Positions 4,588-37,117 of a stretch of DNA of 40,734 nucleotides are shown here, piece after piece; positions within the stretch are counted from its first letter, which is position 1, and every line of letters starts with the position of its first letter. This DNA comes from Bacteroidaceae bacterium (GTDB taxonomy: Bacteria > Bacteroidota > Bacteroidia > Bacteroidales > Bacteroidaceae), in the NCBI GenBank assembly GCA_017940565.1, contig JAGAYH010000022.1, positions 1 to 40,734 of the forward strand, in the 5' to 3' direction. The notes beneath the pieces are model-generated. The model made no database searches. It saw only the letters and a list, made by a program, of their open reading frames with translations, and was not told the origin of the DNA. Both the position numbers and the translations under genes were made by a program.

Positions 4588-4644
4588 TGAAAACGCGGTT
4601 AGACGAGACTAACTACGTTTTCGTTTGAACTAAATCCGTTTTCG
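4588..4644. repeat. 21-bp phased palindromic-site array (element A)
   Basis: Three 15-bp sites occur at 4588-4602 (TGAAAACGCGGTTAG, inverted), 4609-4623 (CTAACTACGTTTTCG) and 4630-4644 (CTAAATCCGTTTTCG), separated by 6-bp spacers so each step is 21 bp. The array exactly fills the gap between the convergent 3' ends of comF and the phosphoesterase. Confidence 0.8.
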
Positions 4645-4646
4645 TT

Positions 4647-6440
4647 TCAGTGCTGATGGATTTTTTTGCCTTTTTGAATGACAATGCCGCGGCTATGGTG
4701 GCCGGCCGGCCTTCCCTGCAGGTCGTAGGCGACGGCGGCCTGTGGCTGCTGCCGGTTGGCGACGCTCCGGATGCCGGACAGGTCGTCAGACGTCTGCTGC
4801 TGCTCCATGTCGAGCGAGAAGGGGTGTGGCCGTCGGATGCTTTGTACATACTGGTTCCCGAAGGAGTCGGTCAGGCGCACGGTGATGGGGTTGTCGGCTG
4901 TATTGGCCTGCACTTTGAAGAGGTGGGACACCTTGCAGGAAGTGAAGGTAGAGGTGTAGGAACCGTTTTGGAAGACGCGGGGCACGTCGTAGCAGATGGT
5001 GTGGTAGGGGTCTTCGCCGTAGATGCGCGTAACGGTGCGGCGCTTGCTGCCTTCGTAAACGAAAATTCTCCAGTCGGTGTCGTAGGCGAAGACGTTGATG
5101 AGTACCGTGTTTTTTGCAAAGTCGCGATAGACGGTTCGTGAGGGGTAGACCTCGAGCATCTTCTTCACGCTGTCGTTGGTTTCAAAGTAGTCCTTTACCG
5201 TGTTCATGTCATAGATGCGCATTTGCAGGTCGCCGTTTTGTTCAATCGACTTGTATTTCCATTGCAGGCGGTCGCCCTCGACGTTCCAAAGTGAATAGCC
5301 GCCGGGCGAGCCGTCGCGGCATACGTGGCGGTTGGTGCAGTAGCCTGTCCACCACCAGGAGGCGCAGATGGCGGCGATGTTGTGCTCCATGATGTTTTTG
5401 TAGCCTGTGGGGTGGGCGTGGTAGTTGTAATGGGTGTGTCCGCTGACGATGTGGACATTGCTGAATTCTTTCAACATGTCGCAAAGTGTCTTGCTGTTGT
5501 CGTCGGCGAGGTTGGCAGTGGCGGTGAAAGGCGATGCCGTCTCCAGTTTCCATACGGGAACGTGGAGGGCGACGATGAGGGGTGCCTCCTTGTCTTCCAC
5601 CAGTGCCAGGTCGCGCCGCAGCCAGTCGAGCTGCTCGGGCGTGAAGCGGGCGGAGTAGTTGCGGCTGCCCACGATGCCCTTGGCATAGTTGCCGCCGGTG
5701 TCTTCGTTGAGGTAATAGACGTCGTCAAGTACGACATAGTGGACGCGTCCGAGGTTGAACGAATAGTAGTTCGGGCACACGATGTTGCGCCATGGGGCGG
5801 AGGAGAGGAAGTCGCAGTCATCGCCGGCCGGCGTGGCGCCGTCGTTGTCGTGGTTGCCGATGACGGGCCAGAGGGTCATGGGGTAGCCGTACTCTTTGCA
5901 GGTGTTCATGAAGTCGTTGAGGTTGTAGTTGCGGCTGTACCAGTAGTTGTCCCATGTCAGGTCGCCCAGAATCATCGAATAAATCTTCCCCTTGCCGGCC
6001 TGCTGCTTTTCGGCTTTCAGGCATTCGATGTAGCCTTCCTTGAATTGCTTGAGGTCGCGGGTACGGTTGGCCAGATGGGAGTCGGCTCCGAGAATGAGCG
6101 TGTAGTTGTCGTTGTCTGCCTTGTTGAGCGTGAAATTGTGTGTTTCATTCGACTTGACGTTGGCGTAAAGCAACTTCTGCCAGAATTGGGGTTGGAAACC
6201 GTCTGTCAGGGTCGGCTCGTAGCCTCGCGGCAGGCTGTAGAATACGTAGCCGTTGCGCTTTTGTGACTGCAGGGCATAGTAGCCTGATTCGTTGGTCACG
6301 GTGACCGAGTCGCCGTCGCTCACGACGACGCCCTCTACACCGATGCCCTTGCAGCGGACGTAGCCGCTGATGTTTTGGGCCAGGACGCTGGCTGCCGTTG
6401 AAAGCAGAATGATTGATAGTAGTAAGTACCTGTGTTTCAT
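4647..6440 (-). CDS. Secreted calcineurin-like metallophosphoesterase
   Basis: This 597-residue exported phosphoesterase has a signal peptide at residues 1-21 (cleavage after VLA-Q). A beta-sandwich N-terminal domain (MetallophosN type, about 22-100) comes first, then the calcineurin-like core, then a C-terminal beta domain (MetallophosC type, from about 400). Metal ligands of the core are visible: D120-x-H122, D160 in GDLTWD, N196-H197-D198, H293 in ALHVP, and H335-x-H337 in SGHTH. The set is complete, so the enzyme should be active as a dinuclear phosphomonoesterase or phosphodiesterase in the periplasm or outside. The substrate cannot be told. It lies 127 bp downstream of the FMN-binding protein gene on the same strand, with a 21-bp repeat array between them. 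Confidence 0.88.
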   Translation of the reverse strand: MKHRYLLLSIILLSTAASVLAQNISGYVRCKGIGVEGVVVSDGDSVTVTNESGYYALQSQKRNGYVFYSLPRGYEPTLTDGFQPQFWQKLLYANVKSNETHNFTLNKADNDNYTLILGADSHLANRTRDLKQFKEGYIECLKAEKQQAGKGKIYSMILGDLTWDNYWYSRNYNLNDFMNTCKEYGYPMTLWPVIGNHDNDGATPAGDDCDFLSSAPWRNIVCPNYYSFNLGRVHYVVLDDVYYLNEDTGGNYAKGIVGSRNYSARFTPEQLDWLRRDLALVEDKEAPLIVALHVPVWKLETASPFTATANLADDNSKTLCDMLKEFSNVHIVSGHTHYNYHAHPTGYKNIMEHNIAAICASWWWTGYCTNRHVCRDGSPGGYSLWNVEGDRLQWKYKSIEQNGDLQMRIYDMNTVKDYFETNDSVKKMLEVYPSRTVYRDFAKNTVLINVFAYDTDWRIFVYEGSKRRTVTRIYGEDPYHTICYDVPRVFQNGSYTSTFTSCKVSHLFKVQANTADNPITVRLTDSFGNQYVQSIRRPHPFSLDMEQQQTSDDLSGIRSVANRQQPQAAVAYDLQGRPAGHHSRGIVIQKGKKIHQH

Positions 6441-6482
6441 GCTACCTTATAATGAATTTTTAAAAAATGGTTATTGATGATT

Positions 6483-6545
6483 CTATGTCCGATATGTTTT
6501 TTCCTATGTCCGATATAGTGAAGACTAAATGGGACATAGTCCGGC
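6483..6545. repeat. 21-bp phased palindromic-site array (element B)
   Basis: Sites at 6483-6497 (CTATGTCCGATATGT), 6504-6518 (CTATGTCCGATATAG) and 6525-6539 (CTAAATGGGACATAG) are separated by 6-bp spacers, so each step is exactly 21 bp. The array lies between the FMN-binding protein gene and the phosphoesterase start, upstream of the latter, so it could affect the phosphoesterase's expression. Confidence 0.8.
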
Positions 6546-6567
6546 CGACGGTTGTGGCTGCTGCCGG

Positions 6568-7035
6568 CTACTTGGAGAGCTTGGCGGCTGTGGCGTTGAC
6601 CGTCTTGATGACGGCGTCGCTGCTGAAGGTGGCGCCGCTGACGGCATCGGGCTTGAAGTGTGCGGCCTCGCGCAGGGTCTTGCCGTTCCAGGCTTTGAGC
6701 AACGGTTTGACGTAAACGAAGAATTCGGGGCTTTCCTGATTCTTTGCCGCTACGATGTTGCTGATTTTTCCCGTCTTGTCCACGGCAATGAACAGTGGGG
6801 TGGGGCCCATGTAGCCGCGGATGTTTTTGCCGTAAGGGTAGGTGCTGTAGACGGTCACTCCGTTTTTGAGTGTCCATGTGGCGGCATCGGCCGCTTTGAA
6901 GGACTGGCCTTTGTAGCCGAGCATCTTCACATAGGCCGACGTGAGTTTTGGGGCAGACGTACCTGCCGGGCTCTGTGCCATGAGGGCGGCCGGCAAGAGC
7001 AGGAACATTGAAATGTGCAGTACTTTTCGCTTCAT
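6568..7035 (-). CDS. Exported FMN-binding domain protein
   Basis: This small 155-residue protein has a signal peptide (residues 1-20, cleavage at LMA-Q) followed by a single FMN-binding domain of the NqrC/RnfG type. The flavinylation-like motif SGAT is at residues 133-136 (PDAVSGATFSSDAV), where the threonine is the usual attachment point for FMN through a phosphoester bond. The role is probably extracytoplasmic electron transfer. No ApbE flavin transferase is visible nearby. The start is placed at 7035 (MKRKVLHI); upstream in-frame codons run into the promoter at 7063-7070. Confidence 0.85.
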   Translation of the reverse strand: MKRKVLHISMFLLLPAALMAQSPAGTSAPKLTSAYVKMLGYKGQSFKAADAATWTLKNGVTVYSTYPYGKNIRGYMGPTPLFIAVDKTGKISNIVAAKNQESPEFFVYVKPLLKAWNGKTLREAAHFKPDAVSGATFSSDAVIKTVNATAAKLSK

Positions 7036-7062
7036 TTTTTCTGTCGGAGAATAATTATGGCG

Positions 7063-7070
7063 CAAAGGTA
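7063..7070 (-). promoter_or_regulatory. -7 promoter box for the FMN-binding protein gene
   Basis: TACCTTTG on the minus strand fits TAnnTTTG and lies 27 bp upstream of the chosen start codon. No convincing -33 element was seen. Confidence 0.5.
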
Positions 7071-7114
7071 CGAAAAACTCGTTCACTAAACGGTGGAAGT
7101 CGCTGTCTTTTTAC

Positions 7115-7122
7115 TAACTTTG
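7115..7122 (+). promoter_or_regulatory. -7 promoter box for the PurF-like gene
   Basis: TAACTTTG fits TAnnTTTG and lies 25 bp before the ATG at 7148. The -33 region is not clear. It is divergent from the promoter at 7063-7070. Confidence 0.5.
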
Positions 7123-7147
7123 CACTACATTTTGAATATACGATTAT

Positions 7148-8554
7148 ATGGGAGGATTCTTCGGCGTGGTCTCCAGGACCAAATGCATCAACGACCTGTT
7201 CTATGGCACCGACTACAACAGCCATCTGGGCACCAAGCGTGCGGGCATGGCCACCTATAGCAAGGAACAGGGTTTTGTCAGGGCCATTCACAATATAGAA
7301 AGCAGTTACTTCCGCAATAAGTTCGACGGTGAACTCAACGAGTTCGAGGGAACGAGTGGCATAGGCGTGATAAGCGACAATGACTCGCAGCCCATCATCG
7401 TCAGAAGCCATCTGGGCCGTTTTGCCCTGGTGACAGTGGCCAAGATAGCCAACTTGGACGAACTGGAGCACAAGTTGCTGGACGAAGGCGAACACTTTTC
7501 GGAGCAAGGCACGGCGGGCATCAACCCCACGGAAGTGGTGGCCCTGCTGATCAGCCGCGGCAAGACGTTTGCCGACGGCATACGCAATGTGTATGAGAAT
7601 GTGAAAGGCTCCTGCTCCATGCTGCTGCTGACCACCGACGGCATCATTGCCGCCCGCGACCGCTGGGGGCGCACCCCCATCATCCTGGCTCGCAAGGAAG
7701 GGGCCTGGGCGGCTACCAGCGAATCGTGTAATCTGCCTAATCTGGATTACGAAACCGTGCGCGACCTCGGACCGGGCGAAGCGGTGCGCATACGTCCCGA
7801 AGGCGTGGAACAAATCCTGGCTCCGGGCAAGGAAATGCAGATATGCTCTTTCTTGTGGGTTTACTATGGTTTCCCCAACTCGACCTACGAAGGCAAAAAT
7901 GTGGAAAAAGTGCGCTACGACTGCGGCCTGGAGATGGGCAAGGACGACCACGAGGAGGTGGACAGCATCTGCGGCATCCCCGACAGCGGTGTAGGCGTGG
8001 CCCTGGGCTATGCCGAGAGCAAGGGCGTGCCATACCACCGCGCCATTACCAAATACACGCCGACGTGGCCCCGCAGTTTCATGCCCGCCACGCCCGACCG
8101 CCGCTTCCTGGTGGCCAAGATGAAACTGATTCCCAACCGTGCCATGCTTGAAGGCAAGCGGCTGATGTTCTGCGACGACTCCATTGTGCGCGGCACCCAA
8201 CTGCGCGACAACGTGAAGGTGCTCTTCGAATACGGAGCCAAGGAGGTGCACATCCGCATCAGCTGTCCGCCGCTGGTTTACCCCTGCGAATACATCGGTT
8301 TTACCAGTTCGCGCTCCTCAATGGAACTTATTACCCGCCGAATCATCCAAGACCTGGAGGGCGATGAGAACAAAAACCTCAAAGCCTATGCCACGACGGG
8401 CTCGCCCGAATACAAGCGCATGGTGGAGGAAATAAGAAAGCGTCTCGGACTGACTTCGCTGCGCTTCAATACCATAGAAACGCTCGTGAAAGCCATAGGC
8501 CTGCCGAAAGAACAGGTGTGCACCCACTGTTTCGACGGTAGCAGCCACTTCTAA
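7148..8554 (+). CDS. Amidophosphoribosyltransferase-family (PurF-like) protein lacking the catalytic N-terminal Cys
   Basis: This 468-residue protein has the full PurF layout: an N-terminal Ntn-hydrolase glutaminase-like domain, then a type I phosphoribosyltransferase domain with the PRPP loop FCDDSIVRGT at residues 341-350. PurF makes 5-phosphoribosylamine from PRPP and glutamine in the first step of purine synthesis. Here the protein begins MGGFFGVVS, whereas glutamine-dependent PurF begins with Met-Cys-Gly and uses that Cys as the nucleophile. As read, it cannot hydrolyse glutamine in the standard way. Related proteins starting MGGFFG and ending CTHCFDGSSHF are, from memory, widespread in Bacteroidetes and usually annotated as PurF. 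It may use ammonia or have another PRPP-linked role. It has its own -7 box. Confidence 0.85.
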   Translation: MGGFFGVVSRTKCINDLFYGTDYNSHLGTKRAGMATYSKEQGFVRAIHNIESSYFRNKFDGELNEFEGTSGIGVISDNDSQPIIVRSHLGRFALVTVAKIANLDELEHKLLDEGEHFSEQGTAGINPTEVVALLISRGKTFADGIRNVYENVKGSCSMLLLTTDGIIAARDRWGRTPIILARKEGAWAATSESCNLPNLDYETVRDLGPGEAVRIRPEGVEQILAPGKEMQICSFLWVYYGFPNSTYEGKNVEKVRYDCGLEMGKDDHEEVDSICGIPDSGVGVALGYAESKGVPYHRAITKYTPTWPRSFMPATPDRRFLVAKMKLIPNRAMLEGKRLMFCDDSIVRGTQLRDNVKVLFEYGAKEVHIRISCPPLVYPCEYIGFTSSRSSMELITRRIIQDLEGDENKNLKAYATTGSPEYKRMVEEIRKRLGLTSLRFNTIETLVKAIGLPKEQVCTHCFDGSSHF

Positions 8555-8629
8555 ACAAGCCGTATCCCCTGAGGGAGGCAACCTCTGTGTCGCTCCCCTC
8601 ATTTGTTTTATAACAGAATAAAAAGTAAC

Positions 8630-10168
8630 ATGACGATGAGACAGATTTTGATGTCCTGCATTCTTGTGCTTGCACTGCTGCCGGCTGCCACGTCTGCCGG
8701 TAAGGCAAAAACCAAGACAATAACGCTCACGAAAGAGCAGCTGATGGACAAAATCAAAGGTGCATGGGCCGGGCAAACCATCGGATGCACCTATGGCGGT
8801 CCCGTGGAGTTTGTGTATCGGGCCAGTATCATTCCCGACAGCGTGAAACTGAAATGGAACGAACACGGCATTAAGGGTTATTTCGACATTATTACGGGCC
8901 TGTACGACGACGTCTATATGGACCTTACCTTTGTCGATGTCTTCGAAAAATACGGTTTGGACGCTCCGGTCGATTCCTTTGCTATGGCTTTCGCCCGTGC
9001 CCCGTACAATCTGTGGCATGCCAATCAGGCCGCACGTTACAACATACAAACCCGTAAGATCATGCCTCCCGCAAGCGGACATTGGCTGAACAACCCTCAT
9101 GCCGACTGTATAGACTTCCAAATAGAGAGCGATTTTGCCGGTATTATGTCACCGGCTATGCCGCAGGCCGCTTGTGGGTTTGCAGACAAGATTGGTCACA
9201 TTATGAATTACGGCGACGGATATTATGGTGGTGTTTACGTGGCTACGATGTACGCTTTGGCCTTCGTTTACGATGATATAGAGACCATCGTGACCGAAGC
9301 GGTGAAATCGCTGCCGGAACAAAGCAACTACCGCAAATGCATTGAGGACGTCGTACGCTGGTATCACGAAAACCCAACAGACTGGAAACGCACGTGGGAC
9401 CTTTGCGAAACTTACCATGCCAATGACAGGGGTTGCCCCGAGGGCGTTGAGGACGCGCTTGACATTGATGCTTCTCTCAACGGAGCCTATGTGGTGATGG
9501 GCCTGCTCTACGGTCAAGGCGACTACGGCCGTACTTTGGAAATCAGCACCCGTTGCGGCCAGGATGCCGACTGCAATCCTTCGACTGCGGCTGGTGTACT
9601 CTCTGCCATGATAGGTTATTCCAACATTCCCGAATATTGGGTGGCTCCGCTGCGGGAAGTGGAGGACCGTCCCTTCCGTTACACCGACATTTCGGTCAAT
9701 CGTGCCACGCAAATGAGTTTCAATCAGGCCCTCCAAGTCATTCAACGCAACGGTGGCCGTGTTAAGGGCAACAAAGTGAAGATAAAAGTACAGCCGCCCC
9801 AGCCTGTGCCCTATGAAAAGAGTTTCGAGAATTTGCGTGTGGATGCCGTGGAGAATTTTCCACAGGTCATCTGCCTTGCCGAGAGTCCTGCCATTCTCAA
9901 ATTCAATGGCGTCGGCGTTGCCTTGCGCGGTTGGCTGAAGAATGCCCCACGTGACTACATCGGCAAGGTGCAAGTGACCATCGACGGCAATGCCGAGACC
10001 ATGATACTGCCTGCCCGTTACCACGACCGCGCTCATGAAAATGTCTATTGGAACTACCAGTTGCCTTCAGGCCGTCACACGATGAAGATAGAGTGGCTCA
10101 ACCCTGTTGAAGGTACAGATGTAGAGATACACCGTGCCGTTTACTATACGGAAGATTCTACTCACTGA
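8630..10168 (+). CDS. Exported ADP-ribosylglycohydrolase family protein
   Basis: This protein of about 512 residues has a signal peptide (MTMRQILM to SAG) and a DraG/ADP-ribosylglycohydrolase fold. Motifs seen are KGAWAGQTIGCTYGGP near the start of the domain, YDD at residues 92-94 and the metal motif CGQDADCNPS with D312 and D314. The family uses two metal ions to cleave ADP-ribose from proteins or small molecules. The last 120 residues or so are a separate beta-rich segment. Exported members are common in Bacteroidetes, and their substrate may be a glycoside rather than ADP-ribose (inference). ATG 8636 is an alternative start. The stop codon overlaps the next start by one base (TGATG), so the next gene is co-translated. 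Confidence 0.85.
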   Translation: MTMRQILMSCILVLALLPAATSAGKAKTKTITLTKEQLMDKIKGAWAGQTIGCTYGGPVEFVYRASIIPDSVKLKWNEHGIKGYFDIITGLYDDVYMDLTFVDVFEKYGLDAPVDSFAMAFARAPYNLWHANQAARYNIQTRKIMPPASGHWLNNPHADCIDFQIESDFAGIMSPAMPQAACGFADKIGHIMNYGDGYYGGVYVATMYALAFVYDDIETIVTEAVKSLPEQSNYRKCIEDVVRWYHENPTDWKRTWDLCETYHANDRGCPEGVEDALDIDASLNGAYVVMGLLYGQGDYGRTLEISTRCGQDADCNPSTAAGVLSAMIGYSNIPEYWVAPLREVEDRPFRYTDISVNRATQMSFNQALQVIQRNGGRVKGNKVKIKVQPPQPVPYEKSFENLRVDAVENFPQVICLAESPAILKFNGVGVALRGWLKNAPRDYIGKVQVTIDGNAETMILPARYHDRAHENVYWNYQLPSGRHTMKIEWLNPVEGTDVEIHRAVYYTEDSTH

Positions 10169-11247: not shown

Positions 11248-11251
11248 TCTT

Positions 11252-12331
11252 ATGACCCCCCATTCCATGACCACCGACGAGCGCTGGATGGCGCGTTGTC
11301 TGCAACTGGCTCGTTGCGGATGCTGTGGCGCGCCTCCCAACCCCATGGTGGGGGCAGTCATCGTGTACCAGGACCGCATCATCGGTGAGGGCTATCATGT
11401 TAAGTGCGGCGAAGCCCATGCCGAGGTCAATGCCTTTGCAGCCGTCACCCATCCAGAGTGGCTCAAGGACAGCACCCTTTACGTCAGTCTCGAACCCTGT
11501 TCCCACTTTGGCCGCACACCGCCCTGTGCAGATTTGATAGTGCGGAAAGGCGTGCGCCGTGTCGTGGTGGGGTGCATTGACCCCTATTCTGAAGTGAGCG
11601 GCCGCGGCGTACGTCTGTTGCGCCAGGCCGGCATCGAGGTGGAGGTGGGCGTGCTCGAAAAGGAGTGTATGGAACTCAACCGCAAGTTTATTGTCAGCCA
11701 AACGCAGGGGCGTCCTTTCGTCACACTCAAATGGGCCGAGAGTGCCGACGGATTTATGGCACCGGAGGTTCTGCCGTCTCAAAACATCTTTATTTCCACC
11801 CCCCGCACCCTTATGCGTGCTCACCGCTTGCGCTCGGAGCATCAGGCCGTCATGATAGGCCGCCGGACGGCTCAGCTGGACAATCCTTCGCTCACCGTGC
11901 GCCGATGGAGTGGGCCGCAACCGCTGCGTGTGGTGCTCGACCGCGACGGCGTGCTTTCCCCATCGCTCCGCATCTTCGACGGCAAGGCGCCCACACTGGT
12001 GTGCGGTGGCCGAGACAACGGAGTGCGTCGTTCGCAAGCCGACTGTGACTATATCGGTCTGGACTACGGCCGGCCCGTTTTGCCGCAAGTGCTGGCCGAA
12101 CTGCAACGGCGCCGGGTGCAATCGCTGTTGGTCGAAGGCGGGCGCCAACTGCTGCAGTCGTTCATCGATGCCGGACTTTGGGACGAGGCCCATGTGGAAA
12201 TCGGCAATGCCCGTTTCGGCGGCGGACTGCCGGCTCCCGACATCAATCTCCCGCCCGTGACTGAAGAAATCCTCTGGGGACATACGGTGAAGCACTATCG
12301 CCGCACCGACGGGGTGCAGTCCGGCCGCTAA
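11252..12331 (+). CDS. ribD: Bifunctional riboflavin biosynthesis deaminase/reductase RibD
   Basis: RibD catalyses two steps of riboflavin synthesis: deamination of the pyrimidine from GTP, then NADPH-dependent reduction of its ribosyl group. The N-terminal deaminase has the zinc site H56-A-E58 plus C83 and C92 (PCSHFGRTPPC). The C-terminal reductase starts near residue 150 with GRPFVTLKWAESADG. At 359 residues it is full length. The start at 11252 (MTPHSMTTDERW) lies 4 bp after the DUF4421 gene; ATG 11267 is an alternative. The stop codon falls inside the first site of the 21-bp array at 12328-12384. No other riboflavin gene is in the window. Confidence 0.92.
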   Translation: MTPHSMTTDERWMARCLQLARCGCCGAPPNPMVGAVIVYQDRIIGEGYHVKCGEAHAEVNAFAAVTHPEWLKDSTLYVSLEPCSHFGRTPPCADLIVRKGVRRVVVGCIDPYSEVSGRGVRLLRQAGIEVEVGVLEKECMELNRKFIVSQTQGRPFVTLKWAESADGFMAPEVLPSQNIFISTPRTLMRAHRLRSEHQAVMIGRRTAQLDNPSLTVRRWSGPQPLRVVLDRDGVLSPSLRIFDGKAPTLVCGGRDNGVRRSQADCDYIGLDYGRPVLPQVLAELQRRRVQSLLVEGGRQLLQSFIDAGLWDEAHVEIGNARFGGGLPAPDINLPPVTEEILWGHTVKHYRRTDGVQSGR

Positions 12332-12384
12332 ATCCCATTTCGTCATCACTAAATCGGATATAGAGCGCTCTATATCCGATTTAG
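12328..12384. repeat. 21-bp phased array containing a perfect 36-bp palindrome (element C)
   Basis: Sites at 12328-12342 (CTAAATCCCATTTCG), 12349-12363 (CTAAATCGGATATAG) and 12370-12384 (CTATATCCGATTTAG) are spaced by 6 bp, so each step is 21 bp. The second and third sites and their spacer AGCGCT form a perfect 36-bp inverted repeat centred between 12366 and 12367. It is followed by a T-rich run and could also act as a terminator for ribD. Confidence 0.88.
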
Positions 12385-12494
12385 GTTTTAAAAAGCCGGC
12401 TCCGTAGCGGCCGCGAGGGTTTCATTCGCGTCGGAAGCCGTTTCCGGTAATCATATTCTGCCTTTTCTTCGGCTGGAATACGGACGGAAATGTG

Positions 12495-18743: not shown

Positions 18744-18821
18744 GTAAAAGACCGTTCGTCGGAACGAAAACGGAGTTGTTCCGGCCTAAATCGGATTTAG
18801 TGATGTCGAAAACGGAGTTAG
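18744..18821. repeat. 21-bp phased palindromic-site array (element D)
   Basis: Clear sites are at 18765-18779 (CGAAAACGGAGTTGT), 18786-18800 (CTAAATCGGATTTAG) and 18807-18821 (CGAAAACGGAGTTAG), with a degenerate one at 18744-18758. Every step is 21 bp with 6-bp spacers. The array lies between two divergent promoters, upstream of both the GH95 operon and the FAD oxidoreductase gene. Confidence 0.82.
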
Positions 18822-25304: not shown

Positions 25305-25340
25305 CTAAATCGCATATAGAAACGACTAACTCCATGCCAC
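25305..25340. repeat. 21-bp phased palindromic-site array (element E)
   Basis: Two sites, 25305-25319 (CTAAATCGCATATAG) and 25326-25340 (CTAACTCCATGCCAC, degenerate), are 21 bp apart with a 6-bp spacer. They lie between the convergent AlkD-like gene and groEL. Confidence 0.6.
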
Positions 25341-29316: not shown

Positions 29317-29347
29317 TAATTGACTTATTCAATAAATATCAATTAAG

Positions 29348-29902: not shown

Positions 29903-29931
29903 TAGACGGGTTCCTCTCCTTATTCTATAAT

Positions 29932-29964
29932 AGGGCCACGTAAGGTTTTAGCCTTCGTGGCCCT
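29932..29964 (+). terminator. Rho-independent terminator of the rubrerythrin gene
   Basis: A 9-bp stem AGGGCCACG/CGTGGCCCT extends through a 1-nt bulge into AAGG/CCTT with a TTTTAG loop, and a GTTTGGTTT run follows. Confidence 0.78.
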
Positions 29965-30132
29965 GTTTGGTTTGCATTCGTTCCGGTGGTGACAGATTGT
30001 GCCCGGAGCTGTCGGAGTCATCAGAATAATCGGATTGTTCGGAAAAAACGCCAAAAATGTCAAAATTTTTCACCGTTTTTCCGGTCGTTTTATAATTTGT
30101 TGATTTCCATATGAGTTCAAATGTTGCGAAAC

Positions 30133-30210
30133 AGAAACGGCGTTTCAAAATTTTGAGGCGCCGTTTCTGCCGTTTGAAACGCCGCTTTTGAGCTCTCAAA
30201 TCGGGCCTCT
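30133..30210. repeat. 21-bp phased array, GC-rich subtype (element G)
   Basis: Four 15-bp sites occur at 30133, 30154, 30175 and 30196 (AGAAACGGCGTTTCA, TGAGGCGCCGTTTCT, TGAAACGCCGCTTTT, TCAAATCGGGCCTCT). All steps are 21 bp with 6-bp spacers. Sites share AAA near positions 3-5 and TTT near 11-13 around a CG centre. A 50-bp core is closely similar to element H at 37040-37117. Confidence 0.82.
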
Positions 30211-30294
30211 TTGCGGGAAATGTCAAATATTTTTTGAAATTAGACCGGCTACGCCGGTAGTGGGCAAGATGTCTTGATGAGCGTAGAAAAAGTA

Positions 30295-30317
30295 AGCGGC
30301 ACCCATGAGATGCCGCT
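30295..30317 (-). terminator. Rho-independent terminator of the FAS1 lipoprotein gene
   Basis: A 7-bp stem AGCGGCA/TGCCGCT with a 9-nt loop is followed on the minus strand by the T-run TACTTTTTC. It lies 33 bp after the stop codon. Confidence 0.65.
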
Positions 30318-30349
30318 ATAGGTAAGATAAAATGAAAAGGGTCATTCTT

Positions 30350-32425
30350 TTACCAGATGTCTTCGGCTTCCACGCCGCTGTAAACCCATTTGGGCACAAT
30401 CTCCATGTAGTCAAGGGCGAGGCCGTTGGTGGTGACGCCTTCGAGCAGGGTTTTCACACGGATGTAGTAAGTCTTTTGCTGTTCCAGTTTGCCGGTGTAG
30501 ATGATGCGCCGGATGGCGTTTCTGGTGCCGGTGGCGGAGCGCAGGGGCTGCGTCATGGCGTTGCCGTAGGAGTTGACGGCGAACTGGTTGGGGCCTTTCA
30601 TGTAGCCGCGGTTGCGCATGTGCTTGTCGTTCTCGAGATTAATCTCCACGTCTTTCTCGTCGGGCACCCATCCGATGTTGGGATCGCTGGTTGACATGCG
30701 GAAGTCGAGCGGCAGGCCGAGAGCCTGGAGGTTGTCGGGATTGGTGCCGAAGTAGAGCTGTCCCATGATACGGTCGGACTGGTTGGTCATGCCGAAGCGA
30801 ATTTCATAGGTGCCGTCGAAGGGCACGGGCAGGAGTTTGAAGGTGAAGTCCACCAGGCCGCTGATGAGGAGTTCGTCGCCCTGGAAGTCGCGCCAGCCCT
30901 CGTAACTGTGCTCCGACATCTGGTTGATGTAGGTCACTTCGGTCTCGTCGGAGAACCAGAAGTCGGTGACGTAGCCACGCGGGATGTTGTGGTTGGCGTT
31001 GATGGTGTAGGAGACGCTGCGGATGTCGTTGGTCATGAGCTCGCGCATGGTGGCCATGGCGTTGAATCGGATGCGCTCGTTGAGCACCTTGTTGGGCACG
31101 TCCTGGTCGTAGAGCAGGATGCCGCCGATGATGTGGTAGTAGCCGTTGAGGGCGTTGTTGGTGTATTGGCCGTTGCCGGTGAACACTTCGATGCCTTCGC
31201 GGTCGCAGGAGAGTTCCTTGAAAGTGCCGCGGAAAGCGGTGTCGTAGGTGCTGTGGCGGTTGATGCTCATGCGGCCGTCCTTAGCCGAGTGGGTAATTTT
31301 GAACATGCGGCGGAATTTGCCGTAAGTCTCATAGTATTCCCAAATGTCGAGCGTGAGCTGGTTGGGCCGTTTGGGCGAGTACCCCAGTTCATTATAGTGG
31401 TAAACAAGGTTGTTGAAGGGCACGCGGAAGTTGAGCAGATGGTACGACACAAACTGGTTGACAGCGTTGTAGGGACTGGTGTAGTCGTCGCTGGTAGCGT
31501 CGGTGTAAACCTCCTTGCAGCGTTGTTCGATGATGGGGAAGATTTCGTCCCAGTTCTTTAACTTGCCGTTCTCCACTTGCAGCTCGGGCAGGTTCCACTC
31601 GGCGCAGTAAACGCTGTCCGGCTCGACGAAAGCGGTGTAGCCGTAGTAGCGGTGGGCGGGATTAGGCTTTTTCCACTGCCACGACTGGCCTTTCTTGGGC
31701 TGCAGGTAGCCTTCGGGCAGCAGTTCGTAGGCTTCGTCGCGGTAGAGCAGCATGGAGTCGGCCCAGCCGGTCATTTCAAGCAGGTGGGAGAATATGAGCA
31801 GGTTGGGCGTTTCGGCTATCAGGGCCGACAAGGAGGCGGTGGAGGGGGAGAGCACGCGGTTGACGGCGTGAATCACACCGTTTGACACCTCGATGTCGCT
31901 GCGGGTGATGCGCGATGAGTTGTTGAGGACAACGGCCAAGTGTCCGCCCTCGATGGTGTCGAAGTCGAGGATGATGTGGCGGTCGTTGAAGGTGGTCCAT
32001 TCGATGGCTCCGCTGACGAACTGGGTGCTCAGGAGGGGCTGTCCGTCGCCGTGGTCGATGAGACAGTTCAGCACGATGGTGTTGGCCACTTCCTGGCTCA
32101 TGGTGTCAATCTCGTAGGGCCGGTGGTCGTAGACGGAGTCGAGAAACAGGCGGACGGCCTGGTTCGTGGGAGCAAAGCAAGTGTAGTTGCCGCGCGTGGA
32201 CAAGAGTTTGTCCAGTGTGCTCTTCTGACGCTGCGACACTTGGGCTCTTTTCAGTATTTGGTAAAAGTCGCTGAAGGTGGTGTCGGACTCCAAAAACTGA
32301 GACATGGTCAAGCCTGTGAATGTGAACAGGTTGCTCTCGTCAATCTTGTCTTCGCACGAGGTGGTGGCGGTCGAGAGCATGGCGGCTAATGCGATAGCCA
32401 AGGGGATGCAAAGTTTTTTTATCAT
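30350..32425 (-). CDS. Fasciclin (FAS1)-domain lipoprotein
   Basis: This 691-residue lipoprotein has a lipobox ending in C24 (STATTSCEDK), so it is anchored in a membrane, likely the outer membrane. The N-terminal part (about 40-195) has FAS1 features: FSDFYQILKRAQVS, the segment YTCFAPTNQAVRLFLDS, and SNGVIHAVNRVLSPS. A second, less clear FAS1-like part follows near 200-450 (SALIAETPNLLIFSHLLEMTGW to NGYYHIIGGILLY), and the C-terminal region is beta-rich. FAS1 lipoproteins in Bacteroidetes are often encoded near SusC/SusD pairs and thought to bind glycans or proteins. No such pair adjoins it here, so its partner is unknown. Confidence 0.82.
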   Translation of the reverse strand: MIKKLCIPLAIALAAMLSTATTSCEDKIDESNLFTFTGLTMSQFLESDTTFSDFYQILKRAQVSQRQKSTLDKLLSTRGNYTCFAPTNQAVRLFLDSVYDHRPYEIDTMSQEVANTIVLNCLIDHGDGQPLLSTQFVSGAIEWTTFNDRHIILDFDTIEGGHLAVVLNNSSRITRSDIEVSNGVIHAVNRVLSPSTASLSALIAETPNLLIFSHLLEMTGWADSMLLYRDEAYELLPEGYLQPKKGQSWQWKKPNPAHRYYGYTAFVEPDSVYCAEWNLPELQVENGKLKNWDEIFPIIEQRCKEVYTDATSDDYTSPYNAVNQFVSYHLLNFRVPFNNLVYHYNELGYSPKRPNQLTLDIWEYYETYGKFRRMFKITHSAKDGRMSINRHSTYDTAFRGTFKELSCDREGIEVFTGNGQYTNNALNGYYHIIGGILLYDQDVPNKVLNERIRFNAMATMRELMTNDIRSVSYTINANHNIPRGYVTDFWFSDETEVTYINQMSEHSYEGWRDFQGDELLISGLVDFTFKLLPVPFDGTYEIRFGMTNQSDRIMGQLYFGTNPDNLQALGLPLDFRMSTSDPNIGWVPDEKDVEINLENDKHMRNRGYMKGPNQFAVNSYGNAMTQPLRSATGTRNAIRRIIYTGKLEQQKTYYIRVKTLLEGVTTNGLALDYMEIVPKWVYSGVEAEDIW

Positions 32426-32475
32426 CGTTGCTGCACTTCGTTGGTGGTTCTACGACTCTTTATGATAAGCGACCT

Positions 32476-32483
32476 CAAAAGTA
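32476..32483 (-). promoter_or_regulatory. -7 promoter box for the FAS1 lipoprotein gene
   Basis: TACTTTTG on the minus strand fits TAnnTTTG and is 50 bp upstream of the ATG at 32425. The region beyond is AT-rich with runs of T and A. Confidence 0.45.
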
Positions 32484-32692
32484 CAAAGTTTTTTTTAGAA
32501 ACGGAGTTTTTTTACTTGAAAAAACACGTTTCCTATGAAATTTTTTTTTTGCGATGTTCTTCTTTGCTTAAAACCTTTGTTCTTGGGAGATTGTGTGAAG
32601 TGCCCGAGGTTATTGGCCTGAGGTGCTAAATCCATTGCGCAAATTTGAAAATATTGGACAAAAGCGGTGCGGTCTGCGGGGCGTGGTCGGGA

Positions 32693-33775
32693 CTAGTGGA
32701 TGATGACCATGGTGGCACCGAAGCCGTACTCGCGGAACGAGGCGTCCTGACTGGTGCATGACTTGTATTTCAGTTGCAGTTCGCGTAGCACGGCATTGCG
32801 CAGGGTGCCCTGTCCCTTGCCGTGGATGAAAATGAGTTTTTTGCCTTTGTGGTTGCGGTGCTCTTCCATCTTCTTCCGGAATACGTCGAGCTGGTATTCC
32901 AGAATGTCGGCCGGTGTCATGCCGCGTGTGGTGTCGAGCAGTTCGGCGGCGTGGAGGTCAATCACTTCCGGCTCGTCCTGCCGCGAGGGCTTCTTGGCAA
33001 TGGCGTGGATGTGGGGGCGGGCGGTGTCGTCTTCCTTGTCGTGACTGCCCATCAGGGCTTCGCGCAGGTCGCCGGCGTTGGCGAAGACCTGATGTTCCGG
33101 ACGGTCGTTGCGCACGAAGTGCCATGTGAGCACGCGTTCGTTGAAGAAGTCGTTGGGGGCGAAGGTGTGGAGTTTGTAGAACTTGGTCAGGTCGGGGCGC
33201 AACTCAACGCTGAGTGCCGGTTTCAGCCGGAAGGTGCGTTCCTCCTTATAAGCCGTCAGTTGCAGGCACACGTGCTGCAGGTCGTTGAGCACCTCGCGCC
33301 CGACTGTTTCCACGTACACTTTTGTGTTTGGCTCGGCCGTGCCGTGCTGGCGCACCATCCAGTTGCTGCCCTCGCCGCTGAGGTAAAGGTAGTCGAGACA
33401 GTAGTTGCTGTCGTTCACCAGATAGACTTCAAATTCCGTTTGACTCAGTGCTTCGATGGTTACTGGCACGAAGCAGAGGCATACGTTGAGGGCGTCGCCG
33501 CCGGTGCGCTCGGCGCTGAGGAAGGGTCTCTGCGGTTGAGGCTCTTCCTTCGGCCGGGTTTCGGCGGTCTTGGCCGGTTGGGGCCGGGGGGCTTCGCGTT
33601 TTGGGGGCGTAGCGGCCGGTGAGCCCTGTTCTTCCACTACCATGCATTCGCTGATGCGCACGGGGATGTCGAAACCGTCGGCGTCCTGCACCAGCACGAT
33701 GCCTTTGTCTTGGAATCCGGTGACCACGCCACCGCCTATCTCGTTGAGAAAACGAACCTTATCGCCTATTTTCAT
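32693..33775 (-). CDS. DUF2027/Smr domain protein
   Basis: This 360-residue cytoplasmic protein has an N-terminal small beta domain with MKIGDKVRFLNEIGGGVVTG (DUF2027 type), a proline- and glutamate-rich linker (about 55-90), a beta-rich middle domain, and a C-terminal Smr domain. The Smr motifs are DLH at residues 273-275 and HGKGQGTLR near 320-328, the same nucleic-acid-binding or nuclease signature as in MutS2. The family is common in Bacteroidetes and lacks the MutS ATPase part. A role in RNA or DNA cleavage, or in ribosome rescue, is possible by analogy but not shown. It has its own -7 box. Confidence 0.85.
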   Translation of the reverse strand: MKIGDKVRFLNEIGGGVVTGFQDKGIVLVQDADGFDIPVRISECMVVEEQGSPAATPPKREAPRPQPAKTAETRPKEEPQPQRPFLSAERTGGDALNVCLCFVPVTIEALSQTEFEVYLVNDSNYCLDYLYLSGEGSNWMVRQHGTAEPNTKVYVETVGREVLNDLQHVCLQLTAYKEERTFRLKPALSVELRPDLTKFYKLHTFAPNDFFNERVLTWHFVRNDRPEHQVFANAGDLREALMGSHDKEDDTARPHIHAIAKKPSRQDEPEVIDLHAAELLDTTRGMTPADILEYQLDVFRKKMEEHRNHKGKKLIFIHGKGQGTLRNAVLRELQLKYKSCTSQDASFREYGFGATMVIIH

Positions 33776-33798
33776 CGTTTCATTCGGTTTTTACACTG

Positions 33799-33806
33799 CA
33801 AAATTA
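33799..33806 (-). promoter_or_regulatory. -7 promoter box for the Smr gene
   Basis: TAATTTTG on the minus strand fits TAnnTTTG and lies 23 bp upstream of the ATG at 33775. Confidence 0.5.
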
Positions 33807-33903
33807 CGAATAAACGGCCGCAGAACAAGGAAAGCGGTGGGGTTTTCTTGCCTTTGCCCCTGCCGTGGGGCGGGAAGAAATCCGGATAGCCATTCCCTCG
33901 CGC

Positions 33904-33981
33904 CGAAAACGGCGTTGGTTTTGTCTAAATCGGATTTGGTCGCGCCGAAAACGGATTTAGTTGCGCCCACGACCGTAAAAC
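33904..33981. repeat. 21-bp phased palindromic-site array (element F)
   Basis: Sites at 33904-33918 (CGAAAACGGCGTTGG), 33925-33939 (CTAAATCGGATTTGG) and 33946-33960 (CGAAAACGGATTTAG) have 6-bp spacers. A degenerate fourth site (CCACGACCGTAAAAC) is at 33967-33981. All steps are 21 bp. The array lies upstream of both the Smr gene and rpoD. Confidence 0.82.
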
Positions 33982-34090
33982 TTGGCAAGAATTGACTCCG
34001 TGGGTTGCCAAAATGGGCCATAGATGGGTGCCGGGATGAAATGATTTTAATTTTTTCTGTTCAGAAAGCCCGAAAAAGGTGGTTCCCGGA

Positions 34091-34121
34091 TTGAAAATTG
34101 AAAAATAAATTTGTAATTTTG
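34091..34121 (+). promoter_or_regulatory. Promoter for rpoD
   Basis: A -33 TTG at 34091-34093 and a -7 TAATTTTG at 34114-34121 are 20 bp apart. This is the form recognised by the same primary sigma factor, so autoregulation by ordinary housekeeping transcription is likely. The start codon at 34172 is 50 bp downstream. Confidence 0.6.
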
Positions 34122-34171
34122 CATCTCGCGCCCGTGTGTACTGGCGCGAAAAGGCAAATAAACGAAGTTAT

Positions 34172-35029
34172 ATGCGTCAACTTAAAATCAACAAAAGTAT
34201 TACAAACCGTCAGAGCGCCGCTCTCGACAAGTACCTGGTGGAAATAGGCCGCGAGGAACTCATTACGACCGACCAGGAAGTGGAGCTCGCCCAGCGCATC
34301 CACAAAGGCGACCAGAAAGCCCTCGACAAACTGACGAAGGCCAACCTGCGCTTTGTGGTCAGTGTGGCCAAGCAGTATCAGAACCAGGGACTCGCTCTGA
34401 ACGATTTGATTGACGAAGGTAACGTGGGATTGATCAAAGCCGCCCAGAAGTTTGACGAAACGCGAGGCTTCAAATTCATCTCCTATGCCGTGTGGTGGAT
34501 ACGCCAGAGCATTCTGCAGGCCATTTCGGAACAGAGCCGTATTGTCCGGATGCCGCTGAATCAAGTGGGATTCCAAAGTAAGTTGAGTAAGGCAAGAGTG
34601 GATTTTGAACAGAAGTACCAGCGTCGTCCTTCAGTACAGGAGCTGGCCGAACTGATGGAAGTTCCCGAAGACAAGATTGCCGAGGCCATGGGTGCCAACG
34701 GCAAGAAAGTGAGTGTGGACGCCCCCTTCCAAAACGACGAGTCGAGCGCCATGATTGACGTGATGACCGACGAAGACGCCCCCACCACCGACAACAGCAT
34801 GGAGCAGGAATCGCTCTCGAACGACCTGGAAGCCGCCTTGAGCCTCTTGTCGGACCGCGAACAGGTGGTGCTGAAGATGCTCTTCGGCATCGGTCACCCC
34901 GAAATGACCGCCGAGGAAGTGGCCAATTCGCTCAACCTGACCCGTGAACGCGTGCGCCAGATTAAGGAGCGCGCCTTGAAACGGTTGCGCGAGAATGAAT
35001 CCATCGACATGCTTAAGAAGTATTTCTAA
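34172..35029 (+). CDS. rpoD: Primary RNA polymerase sigma factor (RpoD/SigA, Bacteroidetes short form)
   Basis: This 285-residue sigma-70 factor lacks the long region 1.1, as is normal for the Bacteroidetes primary sigma. Region 1.2 is near residues 13-45, region 2 contains DLIDEGNVGLIKAAQKFDETRG and FKFISYAVWWIRQSI, region 3 follows, and region 4 has the HTH with MTAEEVANSLNLTRERVRQIK. It directs transcription from the TTTG/TAnnTTTG promoters seen across this window. The start at 34172 (MRQLKINKSITNRQS) is preferred to the in-frame ATG at 34136, because the promoter -7 box ends at 34121 and 34136 would give almost no leader. Confidence 0.95.
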   Translation: MRQLKINKSITNRQSAALDKYLVEIGREELITTDQEVELAQRIHKGDQKALDKLTKANLRFVVSVAKQYQNQGLALNDLIDEGNVGLIKAAQKFDETRGFKFISYAVWWIRQSILQAISEQSRIVRMPLNQVGFQSKLSKARVDFEQKYQRRPSVQELAELMEVPEDKIAEAMGANGKKVSVDAPFQNDESSAMIDVMTDEDAPTTDNSMEQESLSNDLEAALSLLSDREQVVLKMLFGIGHPEMTAEEVANSLNLTRERVRQIKERALKRLRENESIDMLKKYF

Positions 35030-35076
35030 TCCGCCCACGCATCGTCCGAACCACATTTTTTGAGGAAAGAATAAGC

Positions 35077-35107
35077 AAAGCCTGTGACCACTGCGGTCGC
35101 AGGCTTT
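35077..35107 (+). terminator. Rho-independent terminator of rpoD
   Basis: A 13-bp stem (AAAGCCTGTGACC with GGTCGCAGGCTTT, including one G-T pair) has a 5-nt loop and is followed by a run of six T. It lies 48 bp after the rpoD stop. Confidence 0.85.
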
Positions 35108-35146
35108 TTTCTTGCCCTCTTTCGCACGTACACCGTAATAAAAGTG

Positions 35147-35154
35147 TACTTTTG
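35147..35154 (+). promoter_or_regulatory. -7 promoter box for queA
   Basis: TACTTTTG fits TAnnTTTG and ends 25 bp before ATG 35179. It overlaps the in-frame ATG at 35152, which excludes that codon as a start. Confidence 0.55.
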
Positions 35155-35178
35155 CAGTCGCAAAACAAACATGCTGCC

Positions 35179-36399
35179 ATGACGTGCGACCCCAGACATA
35201 TCCGCATTGACGACTACGACTACACGTTGCCCGAGGAGCGTATAGCGCGCTACCCCGTGCCCGGCCGCGACGGCTCGAAACTGCTCGTTTACCGCCAGGG
35301 CGAAGTGTTCCACCGTCCCTTCACCGACTTGCCCGAACTGTTGCCGGCCGACAGCCTGATGGTGTTCAATAACACCAAGGTCATACAGGCCCGTCTCCAC
35401 TTCCGCAAGGACACAGGCGCGCTCATCGAAATATTCTGTCTCGAACCCCACTTGCCGCGCGAATACCAGCAAAACTTCGACAGCCGCGGCCAGTGCGAAT
35501 GGGTCTGTCTGGTGGGCAACCGCAAGAAGTGGAAACAGGGAGCGTTGGAACGCGTCATCTCCCGTGACGGCGGCGACGTGACGCTACGTGCCGAAATCGT
35601 GGGACCGCTGCAGTCGGGCGAAGTGGTACGTTTCACGTGGGATAACCCGACGCTGAGTTTCGCCGAAGTGCTCGAAGCCGTGGGCGAACTGCCCATACCG
35701 CCCTACCTGAACCGCGACACCGAGGAACAGGACAAGGAAACCTACCAGACCGTTTACTCAAAAATCGAGGGCAGTGTGGCTGCCCCGACGGCCGGACTTC
35801 ACTTCACCGAACGAGTCTTTGAGGCATTACGGCAGCGTGGCATCGTTTGCGATGAAATCACCCTCCACGTCGGCGCCGGTACCTTCCGTCCCGTGAAGAG
35901 TGAGGAAATGGCAGGCCATGAGATGCATTCGGAATATATCTACGTCACCCGCGACAGCCTGCAGCGCCTCATTGACTTCCAAGGCCGCTGCACTGCCGTC
36001 GGCACCACCTCGGTGCGCACTCTGGAGTCCTTATATTATATAGGTATAAAACTTCTGCACCAGCCCGACCTCACCGAGGACCAGCTCCATGTGGACCAGT
36101 GGGAACCCTACGACACCGCCGCTCTCCCTACTACCTGCGAAGCCCTCAAGGCCATCGTCGGCTGGCTCGACCGCAACCGCCTCAGCGCGCTCCACACTTC
36201 CACGCAGATTATCATCGCCCCGGGCTACACATATCACGTCGTAGAGCGCATGGTCACCAATTTCCACATGCCCAAGAGCACCCTCCTGCTCCTTGTCTCC
36301 GCCTTCATCGGCAACGACTGGCGCCGCGCCTACGACTACGCCCTCAGCCACGGCTTCCGCTTCCTCAGCTACGGCGACAGCTCCCTGCTCATGCCATAA
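35179..36399 (+). CDS. queA: S-adenosylmethionine:tRNA ribosyltransferase-isomerase QueA
   Basis: QueA transfers and isomerises the ribosyl part of SAM onto 7-aminomethyl-7-deazaguanine in tRNA, giving epoxyqueuosine at wobble position 34. The 406-residue protein (start MTCDPRHIRIDDYDY) shows PEERIARYP, KLLVYRQGE, LMVFNNTKVIQARL, and the signature YQTVYSKIEGSVAAPTAGLHFTE. It has the HVGAGTFRPV and GYTYHVVERMVTNFHMPKSTLL segments. The length matches the longer Bacteroidetes QueA type. ATG 35179 is preferred because an in-frame ATG at 35152 overlaps the -7 promoter box. The Nudix gene follows after 31 bp. Confidence 0.95.
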   Translation: MTCDPRHIRIDDYDYTLPEERIARYPVPGRDGSKLLVYRQGEVFHRPFTDLPELLPADSLMVFNNTKVIQARLHFRKDTGALIEIFCLEPHLPREYQQNFDSRGQCEWVCLVGNRKKWKQGALERVISRDGGDVTLRAEIVGPLQSGEVVRFTWDNPTLSFAEVLEAVGELPIPPYLNRDTEEQDKETYQTVYSKIEGSVAAPTAGLHFTERVFEALRQRGIVCDEITLHVGAGTFRPVKSEEMAGHEMHSEYIYVTRDSLQRLIDFQGRCTAVGTTSVRTLESLYYIGIKLLHQPDLTEDQLHVDQWEPYDTAALPTTCEALKAIVGWLDRNRLSALHTSTQIIIAPGYTYHVVERMVTNFHMPKSTLLLLVSAFIGNDWRRAYDYALSHGFRFLSYGDSSLLMP

Positions 36400-36430
36400 T
36401 TCGCAACATTCATTCTTACCTCTTCATACT

Positions 36431-36949
36431 ATGATCGATTCCCTTGACGATATGCTCCCGCTGGTGGACGAGGCGGGCCATGTGACGGGCGCGGCCACGC
36501 GGCGCGAGTGCCACGGCGGCAGCCGGTGGCTTCATCCGGTGGTTCACCTGCATGTGTTCAATGCTGCGGGCGATGTGTATCTGCAGAAGCGGCCGGACTG
36601 GAAGGACATTCAGCCGGGCAAGTGGGACACGGCCTGCGGCGGCCATGTGGACTTGGGCGAGAGTGTGGAACAGGCCCTGCGGCGTGAGGTCAGGGAGGAG
36701 TTGGGCATCACGGACTACGAGCCGCGGCGTATTGCCCAATACGTCTATGATTCACGGCGTGAGCGCGAACTGGTCTTCGTCCACACGGCTGTTTACGACC
36801 AACCCATCCACCCCGATGCCACCGAGTTGGCCGGAGGCCGTTTTTGGTCGCGCACCGAAATCGCCGAAAACATCGGCCGGGGCGTCTTCACCCCCAATTT
36901 TGAAAGTGAATGGCGCGACATAGTCTTGCCCGCGGTGGATAAGCCATAA
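36431..36949 (+). CDS. Nudix hydrolase
   Basis: This protein of about 172 residues carries the Nudix box G-HVDLG-E-SVEQALR-REVREELGI, which binds the metal and hydrolyses nucleoside diphosphate-linked substrates. The N-terminal part (MLPLVDEAGHVTGAATRRECHGGSRWLHPVVHLHVFN) and the overall order resemble the Nudix subgroup related to isopentenyl diphosphate isomerase. Those extra isomerase residues cannot be confirmed, so a housekeeping pyrophosphatase is the safer reading. The start at 36431 is chosen because the upstream in-frame part is the translation of the queA end in another frame. It follows queA by 31 bp and may be co-transcribed. Confidence 0.88.
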   Translation: MIDSLDDMLPLVDEAGHVTGAATRRECHGGSRWLHPVVHLHVFNAAGDVYLQKRPDWKDIQPGKWDTACGGHVDLGESVEQALRREVREELGITDYEPRRIAQYVYDSRRERELVFVHTAVYDQPIHPDATELAGGRFWSRTEIAENIGRGVFTPNFESEWRDIVLPAVDKP

Positions 36950-37039
36950 GACGGAGCTCTCCGGTAAGGTGGGCTCCGCCGGTTTAATTGTTAAGAGTGT
37001 TAATGGCGTGCCCGTTTCCGATTTAACATTTTGGAGAGC

Positions 37040-37117
37040 AGAGGTGGGATTTCGGGGCGCAAAAGCGGCGTTTCAAAATTTTGAAACGGCGTTTCTGCAG
37101 GCTGAAACGGCGCTTCT
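37040..37117. repeat. 21-bp phased array, GC-rich subtype (element H)
   Basis: Sites begin at 37040 (AGAGGTGGGATTTCG), 37061 (AAAAGCGGCGTTTCA), 37082 (TGAAACGGCGTTTCT) and 37103 (TGAAACGGCGCTTCT). Steps are 21 bp with 6-bp spacers. About 42 of 50 bases from 37066 match element G from 30138. Confidence 0.85.

Follow-up and report, generated by a model that had tools for sequence, protein, structure and literature searches.

The 40,734-nucleotide window analysed here is contig JAGAYH010000022.1 (positions 1 to 40,734) of a Bacteroidaceae bacterium (assembly GCA_017940565.1), and its intergenic gaps contain arrays of 15-base-pair (bp) palindromic units that are separated by 6-bp spacers and follow one another at an exact step of 21 bp. 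Twenty genes of the window are ordinary by Pfam (a GroEL-type chaperonin, sigma-70, RibD, rubrerythrin and others), with one having no family. Two classes of unit share a single 21-bp register: class 1, with the pattern CnAAnnCSGnnTTnG, and class 2, with the pattern nGAARCGSCGYTTCn.

Three-unit class-1 arrays lie at 4588..4644, where the array nearly fills a 63-bp gap between convergent genes and its units 1 and 2 are inverted as a stem-loop (fold z −1.5); at 6483..6539, as a CTATGTC variant 42 bp upstream of a minus-strand gene (4647-6440); at 12328..12384, overlapping the stop codon of a RibD-like gene, with units 2 and 3 forming a perfect inverted repeat; at 18765..18821, as a canonical plus-strand array in a divergent gap; and at 33904..33960, also on the plus strand, with a divergent DUF2027/Smr gene on one side and a sigma-70 gene on the other. 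A class-2 array of three units occupies a convergent gap at 30133..30189 (fold z −4.3), its units 1 and 2 making up a 36-bp inverted repeat, and a mixed array of four units (class 1222) is found at 37040..37117.

An initial annotation, made from the letters alone, had described eight arrays with about 25 sites, and the sequence it reported does stand in a 21-bp register at all eight places. Seven are arrays by the site model (those beginning at 4588, 6483, 12328, 18765, 30133, 33904 and 37040), with 22 called units rather than about 25; the end units at 18744, 30196 and 33967 score below zero. The eighth place, in a convergent gap, holds a single class-1 site at 25305..25319 (score 18.1; nhmmer E 0.02–0.04) whose supposed partner at 25326 fails the site model with a score of −6.6, and no array was called there. 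The frame nnAAAnCSGnTTTnn given for all sites describes class 1 well but not the arrays at 30133 (wholly) and 37040 (mostly), which belong to the second class and have another core. As a whole, the accompanying interpretation (cooperative binding of an architectural or regulatory protein, chromosome organisation, or a repeat kept by selection on its phasing) is partly supported by the results below.

Spacing and anatomy of the arrays

The source genome, G000, comprises 1.79 Mb in 56 contigs and is 63% complete. We sampled 20 stretches of it (348 kb), which together with the window gave 389 kb. These stretches were picked around exact class-1 sites, so array densities are biased upward: the sample covers 28 of the 36 exact sites, and 28 of its 95 arrays contain one. 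Owing to this seeded sampling, gaps without the exact class-1 seed motif were counted apart. Sites were scored with a symmetric 15-mer model, using third-order Markov sequence as control, and a relaxed caller returned 95 arrays in the G000 sample, 79 in 505 kb of the sister species G015 (median protein identity 86.6% over 82 orthologues) and none in controls. Samples of the other congeners amounted to 10–180 kb each, with G001 and G003 covered by motif search only.

In the 389-kb sample, 116 pairs of sites stand 21 bp apart, 55 stand 42 bp apart and two stand 63 bp apart, while any other distance up to 130 bp occurs once or twice (the off-register steps up to 42 bp being single cases at 16, 20 and 41). 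Freely varying steps, which the initial annotation had named as the outcome that would count against it, were thus looked for and not found. The Markov control contained no site pairs, and a second control run contained one pair at any distance. Nor are sites equally dense inside genes: only 4 of the 95 arrays fall in called genes, even though our own hexamer-based gene calls cover 83–92% of each stretch. The controls and the near absence from genes rule out an origin by chance or coding, and the observation of phased arrays is confirmed as real. The sites are phased on one face of the helix, and strict spacing is combined with poorly conserved spacers, both as first described.

Three units per array are the norm (53 of 63 arrays), with two units in 7 arrays and four in 3. 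The exact class-1 site, CTAAATCNGATTTAG, has 36 copies genome-wide in G000, where its reversed pattern has none. Among 94 G000 arrays, 60 are pure class 1, 20 are pure class 2 and 14 are mixed, each unit being assigned to the better scoring of two site models so that intermediate units are forced into one class. Alignment of 28 class-1 arrays gave the consensus A-CGAAAACGGAGTTGG-N6-CTAAATCSGATTTAG-N5A-CGAAAACGGAGTTRG-T, with 59 conserved positions beyond which conservation falls sharply to a few columns of 0.4–0.74 bit. Information is high at the outer and inner C/G positions of the units and low in the 6-bp spacers. Owing to the seed chosen, the central unit is fully palindromic, and the outer units are asymmetric and mostly point in the same direction; half-sites with G as second base (of the CGAAAAC kind) rarely face each other (7 of 185 units). 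The AA and TT of the units recur on average once per 10.5 bp. Class-2 cores are G+C-rich at the centre, and class-2 units often pair up into a 36-bp inverted repeat with AAATTT, or a spacer like it, in the middle. In orthologous gaps without arrays we counted 21 gap openings per 428 substitutions; because neighbouring DNA does take insertions and deletions, the fixed spacing of the arrays points to selection.

Placement relative to genes and promoters

By the relaxed caller, an array is present in 47 of the 54 gaps of at least 300 bp in the G000 sample (25 of 32 in the seed-free subset) and in 5 of the 129 gaps shorter than 120 bp, all five convergent. Most long gaps carry an array in three of the four gene orientations. 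The arrays had been thought indifferent to gene layout, a view that does not survive their rarity in gaps shorter than 120 bp and their frequency in long, promoter-bearing ones. Long gaps with arrays also occur in relatives (40 of 71 in G015 and 8 of 26 in the congener G005). Scaling the 67 seed-free arrays in 389 kb and adding the 36 seeded ones gives, by extrapolation, ~340 arrays in the assembled 1.79 Mb.

The segment between array and start codon mostly contains TAnnTTTG, which we take to be the Bacteroidetes −7 promoter box: 80 of 99 segments in G000 against 6.7 expected from shuffles, 59 of 71 in G015 against 6.3, and 14 of 15 in G005 against 4.1. Most arrays therefore lie upstream of promoters. 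In codirectional gaps the median distance after the upstream stop is 38.5 bp for class 2 (10 cases) and 101.5 bp for class 1 (30 cases). Short downstream genes, surveyed by eye in three species, include candidates for HU, HU-like, MraZ-like and GntR-like proteins and sigma factors, which are possible leads, among many enzymes. Arrays inside open frames were found in linkers at L017:10396-10452 and L018:7878-7934, both shorter in the sister orthologues; at L011:14998-15054, a junction whose counterpart in some congeners is a pair of separate genes; and at L022:5036-5092, where the start is probably misplaced.

Hairpin folding

Folding is strong in the five class-2 arrays tested (z −2.9 to −6.6), and convergent class-1 arrays gave z values of −1.5, −7.2 and −4.8. 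Among six promoter-side class-1 arrays, three fold (z −2.1, −2.5 and −4.4) and three do no better than shuffles (z 1.0, −0.1 and −0.7). If the arrays were RNA hairpins, serving as terminators or stabilisers of mRNA ends, this folding would be accounted for, as would the short median distance of class-2 arrays from the upstream stop and the paired changes between species seen by eye in one convergent array (L008 17071 versus L161). We nevertheless consider this a very unlikely explanation for the arrays, given the three promoter-side class-1 arrays that do not fold, the 18 class-1 arrays in divergent gaps, where no terminator is needed, and the window itself, in which only three weak terminator-like calls (5–6 pairs) touch arrays and the total number of calls is near the shuffle mean.

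Complementarity at position 1 of the unit (its second base) is 29% within units and only 13–14% across the spacer, compared with 44–93% at other positions, as for like half-sites; with so low a value across the spacer, class-1 arrays do not generally form stem-loops. An RNA or cruciform structure as the general role of class 1 was rejected on this low complementarity and the unfolded half of the promoter-side arrays; class-2 and convergent arrays may have a hairpin role.

Shared loci in a sister species

Among 30 orthologous gaps of at least 60 bp, an array is present in both G000 and G015 in 18, in neither in 9, in G015 only in 2 and in G000 only in 1 (Fisher p 3.5e-5, the nearly identical pair L023/L155 included). 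Dropping that pair leaves 17 gaps with an array in both, and G015 then retains an array in 17 of the 18 counted array-bearing gaps of G000. Position is also maintained: between the sisters, the array is shifted relative to the gene edge by a median of 22 bp, versus 66 at random (p 0.0023), the nearest pair being used for orthologous gaps with two arrays (L005 7178, L020 1817 and L023 6145).

The motif at these positions changes. The 12 pure class-1 arrays that G000 has in these gaps correspond in G015 to 9 that are mostly class 2 and 3 that are still class 1, in a comparison where the class-2 model was trained on 20 of the 40 G015 stretches used and two of the 12 gaps carry one more G015 array, which belongs to the other class. 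Alignments between the two species retain phase and often unit number while the letters differ. Two arrays of the window illustrate this: the gap of 33904..33960 has a three-unit array in G015, class 2 by the relaxed caller, and the counterpart of 37040..37117 is a G015 class-2 array at L153:3173, next to the orthologue of the same upstream gene.

Separately, the sister contig L155, compared with L023 and L225, has patches of near-100% identity to G000 amid 85–91% identity, which suggests recent exchange. Arrays are nearly identical in the two near-identical patches that were seen, and their class differs in two diverged ones.

Arrays are also gained and lost as blocks: a class-2 array lying a few bases past a stop codon in G015 (L212) is absent from G000, and the two G000 genes with linker arrays (L017 10396 and L018 7878) are longer than their G015 orthologues by 15 and 28 codons. 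This turnover, the species-private motifs described below and the occupation of most long gaps in all but one of the four gene orientations would fit an interspersed repeat family, of a kind with repetitive extragenic palindromes (REPs), miniature inverted-repeat transposable elements (MITEs) or Rickettsia palindromic elements, that copies itself into tolerated intergenic DNA with species-specific expansion. We regard such a family as a rather unlikely explanation, because no conserved ends are seen (columns outside the 59 bp are weak), because near-random spacers at exact spacing are unlike fresh copies, and because arrays stay at orthologous positions with their motif changed.

Motifs private to species

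The exact class-1 site is absent from all 18 congeners and occurs once, standing alone, in one other member of the family. The strict class-2 core has 143 copies in G000, 125 in G015 and 0–3 in 17 others. G005 has arrays of its own, with 173 phased TTCCn7GGAA pairs at 21 bp, and no such pairs were found in the other 18 genomes of the genus. Other words form 21- or 22-bp arrays in small numbers (for example in G004, G007, G010 and G014), simple 7-bp repeats inflating the array counts of G007 and G011, and samples of G002, G006, G009 and G018 contain next to no 21–22-bp arrays.

A private motif, a high copy number and hairpin pairs near gene ends are what one would expect of species self-marks resembling DNA uptake sequences, whose dialects differ between relatives. 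The phased multi-unit layout, the placement upstream of promoters and the avoidance of genes are atypical of uptake sequences, which are not known to form phased arrays, and we hold this explanation to be highly improbable. The likeness lies in the species dialects. For the Neisseriaceae, excerpts of PMC3630211 describe the DNA uptake sequence as a short genome-wide mark with species dialects.

Carriage by phages or mobile elements was also considered and set aside. The pattern matched 48 genome stretches and 8 viral contigs, with a strong three-unit array only in L029 and a single weak partner in a few further matches, among them L027, L060, L068 and L080. Over the 4,399 bases of L029, identity to G000:C41 is 99%, so that L029 belongs to the same species or is a misbinned contig.

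Several tandem repeats of other kinds were encountered in these genomes. Arrays with a 22-bp step and other words lie at L174:9934, L174:18132 and L178:15429 (G014), at L180:13059 and L182:19636 (G010) and at L117:10722 and L119:11397 (G004), the G004 unit being a 16-bp palindrome plus 6 bp. In G018, where 21-bp arrays are rare, we found 43-bp tandem arrays, each with its own sequence (L090:7876-8031, L128:15233-15396, L130:18369-18725 and L131:88-264), the step being about twice 21.5 bp. Tandem repeats of 7 bp, such as GAGTTAG and ATTGACC, are numerous in G007 and G011 (L096, L133-L135, L123), one reaching ~250 bp.

Helical phase and a proposed model of operator clusters

Measured from the end of the array, the −7 box lies in helical phase, with a period of 10.4–10.5 bp, in G000 (n = 81, R 0.27, p 0.003) and G015 (n = 58, R 0.39, p 0.00014), these p values being for a single period after an initial look that scanned 33. 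The phase is similar in the two species (2.3 bp in G000 and 3.2 bp in G015), and in both no period between 5 and 40 does better than 10.4. None of 20,000 random jitters of the distances reached the pooled value, and the phasing is also seen on those G015 contigs that lack orthologous array gaps (n = 30, p 0.0024). Distances from array to gene stop are not phased (p 0.27 and 0.17), nor are box-to-box distances across arrays in divergent gaps (n = 31, p 0.49); those in divergent gaps without arrays are barely phased (n = 19, p 0.05).

On balance we favour, with moderate confidence, a reading of the arrays as putative operator clusters, bound by a DNA-binding oligomer that would change its target from one species to another by drift. 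Fixed spacing, free spacers, the three-unit norm, the kept position and the placement upstream of promoters argue for selection on a protein-bound array. Each 15-bp palindromic unit would be a dimer site, its AA and TT contacts spaced by roughly one turn of the helix in the manner of a helix-turn-helix (HTH) dimer, and three dimers exactly two turns apart on one DNA face would bind side by side as one oligomer. In most of the long intergenic regions examined, a cluster precedes the core promoter and is in phase with the A-tracts there, so the bound protein would probably be an architectural or global regulatory factor acting from upstream of promoters. Those versions at 3' ends that form hairpins may be co-opted gene-end structures, and where the target word differs at loci shared by G000 and G015, the specificity of the protein would have drifted and the sites followed. 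Dyad sites in a fixed helical register upstream of promoters, a feature of operator clusters, are found here, with a phase that A-tracts share generally. Phasing, unit number, intergenic and promoter-upstream placement, private motifs and the kept position with changed class are observed; the protein itself, its type, its cooperative binding and any effect on transcription are inferred.

Several findings weigh against this model. Array-to-box distances range from 20 to ~290 bp, with two beyond, which is wide for a classical activator; array orientation relative to gene direction is 17 to 10; a cognate protein was not found, no search of HTH families having been made; and the block gain and loss of arrays, also in frame inside genes, is repeat-like. 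The phasing itself is not confined to arrays. In the G000 and G015 samples, A4/T4 tracts ahead of the −7 box show a 10.5-bp phase whether or not an array is present (R 0.41 and 0.30 in array-less gaps), and lone unphased sites lean toward the same phase (p 0.065 and 0.016). Weaker phasing links arrays to start codons (p 0.004), TTTTT (p 0.004), AAAAA (p 0.04) and TTGC (p 0.0003), start codons and TTGC words being themselves tied to the −7 box, and G005 (n = 10) is without array-to-box phasing at 10.5 bp (p 0.52).

Since A-tracts, lone sites and other words are phased too, the phase may be a property of curved promoter DNA rather than of array binding. We conclude that arrays and promoter-upstream A-tracts lie on the same helix face; phasing as proof of contact with RNA polymerase, weakened by the A-tract control, was dropped. 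Taken further, the arrays might be nothing but phased A-tracts that give promoter-upstream DNA an intrinsic curvature and need no dedicated binding protein, in keeping with the array-independent phase of the A4/T4 tracts and the average 10.5-bp recurrence of AA and TT within units. Curvature, however, requires neither the informative C/G positions nor a private core, and the G+C-rich centre of class 2 and the usual three units per array also speak against it, so that we regard this as improbable.

Private words and block turnover suggest that new arrays arise through the dynamics of repeats, and this can be true together with the operator model: arrays may be seeded as repeats and afterwards retained as operators. 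More tentatively, and as a possibility that we would not call probable, a global DNA-binding protein of the genus may mark most long promoter regions with arrays of three dimers, its word being rewritten between sisters across hundreds of operators (a number obtained by extrapolation) that would largely retain their unit number, phase and position. If true, a bacterial regulator and its sites would have co-evolved on the scale of a genome, perhaps under pressure from an antagonist reading the same word. Motifs of bacterial global regulators are usually stable across a genus. Here the array layout is conserved, while each word is confined to one species or one sister pair and differs between sisters at the same loci. 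The arrays could therefore provide a natural series for how a regulator and many sites change together, or for how short repeats become regulatory, and they point to a very frequent promoter-upstream component in bacteria with Bacteroidetes-type promoters.

Comparison with known systems

No Rfam family matched the window above its gathering score, and no description of the array layout was found in the titles and abstract openings of open-licence PMC literature; the initial annotation had likewise named no family. We file the arrays as a new family within a broad kind, that of interspersed intergenic palindromic repeats or operator clusters. REPs and bacterial interspersed mosaic elements (BIMEs) are also short, palindromic, intergenic and high in copy number, some lying at 3' ends (in part from excerpts of PMC3733652), whereas the present arrays usually comprise three 15-bp units, stepped by exactly 21 bp, and mostly lie upstream of promoters. 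A tag of the REP/BIME GTAG/CGTC type is not conserved in or beside the 28 aligned class-1 arrays, and no conserved ends such as MITE terminal inverted repeats were seen within 41 bp on either side of them.

According to excerpts of PMC4596501, BrickBuilt of Porphyromonas gingivalis is a minisatellite MITE with 23-nucleotide units that follow without spacers between a leader and a tail, present in 19 copies in ATCC 33277. It resembles the arrays in being intergenic, in a tandem unit near two helical turns, in its narrow host range and in its occurrence in Bacteroidales, and differs from them in that the arrays have 6-bp spacers, neither leader nor tail, and ~95 occurrences in 389 kb. The arrays are not CRISPR arrays, as their units differ from one another and the spacer is 6 bp.

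Two operator systems have comparable geometry. Lambdoid phages have triple operators of three palindromic dimer sites with short spacers that fill cooperatively, one or two per phage; the three-site layout is alike, but the present arrays are many per chromosome. ArgR boxes are palindromic, have centres 21 bp apart and are bound by an oligomer, with two boxes at each of a few operators; the centre spacing is alike and the consensus differs.

Outside the arrays, the window contains 63-bp coding repeats at 447-1081 that resemble leucine-rich repeats, and two dockerin-like 63-bp repeats at 2229-2372 that end the same gene.

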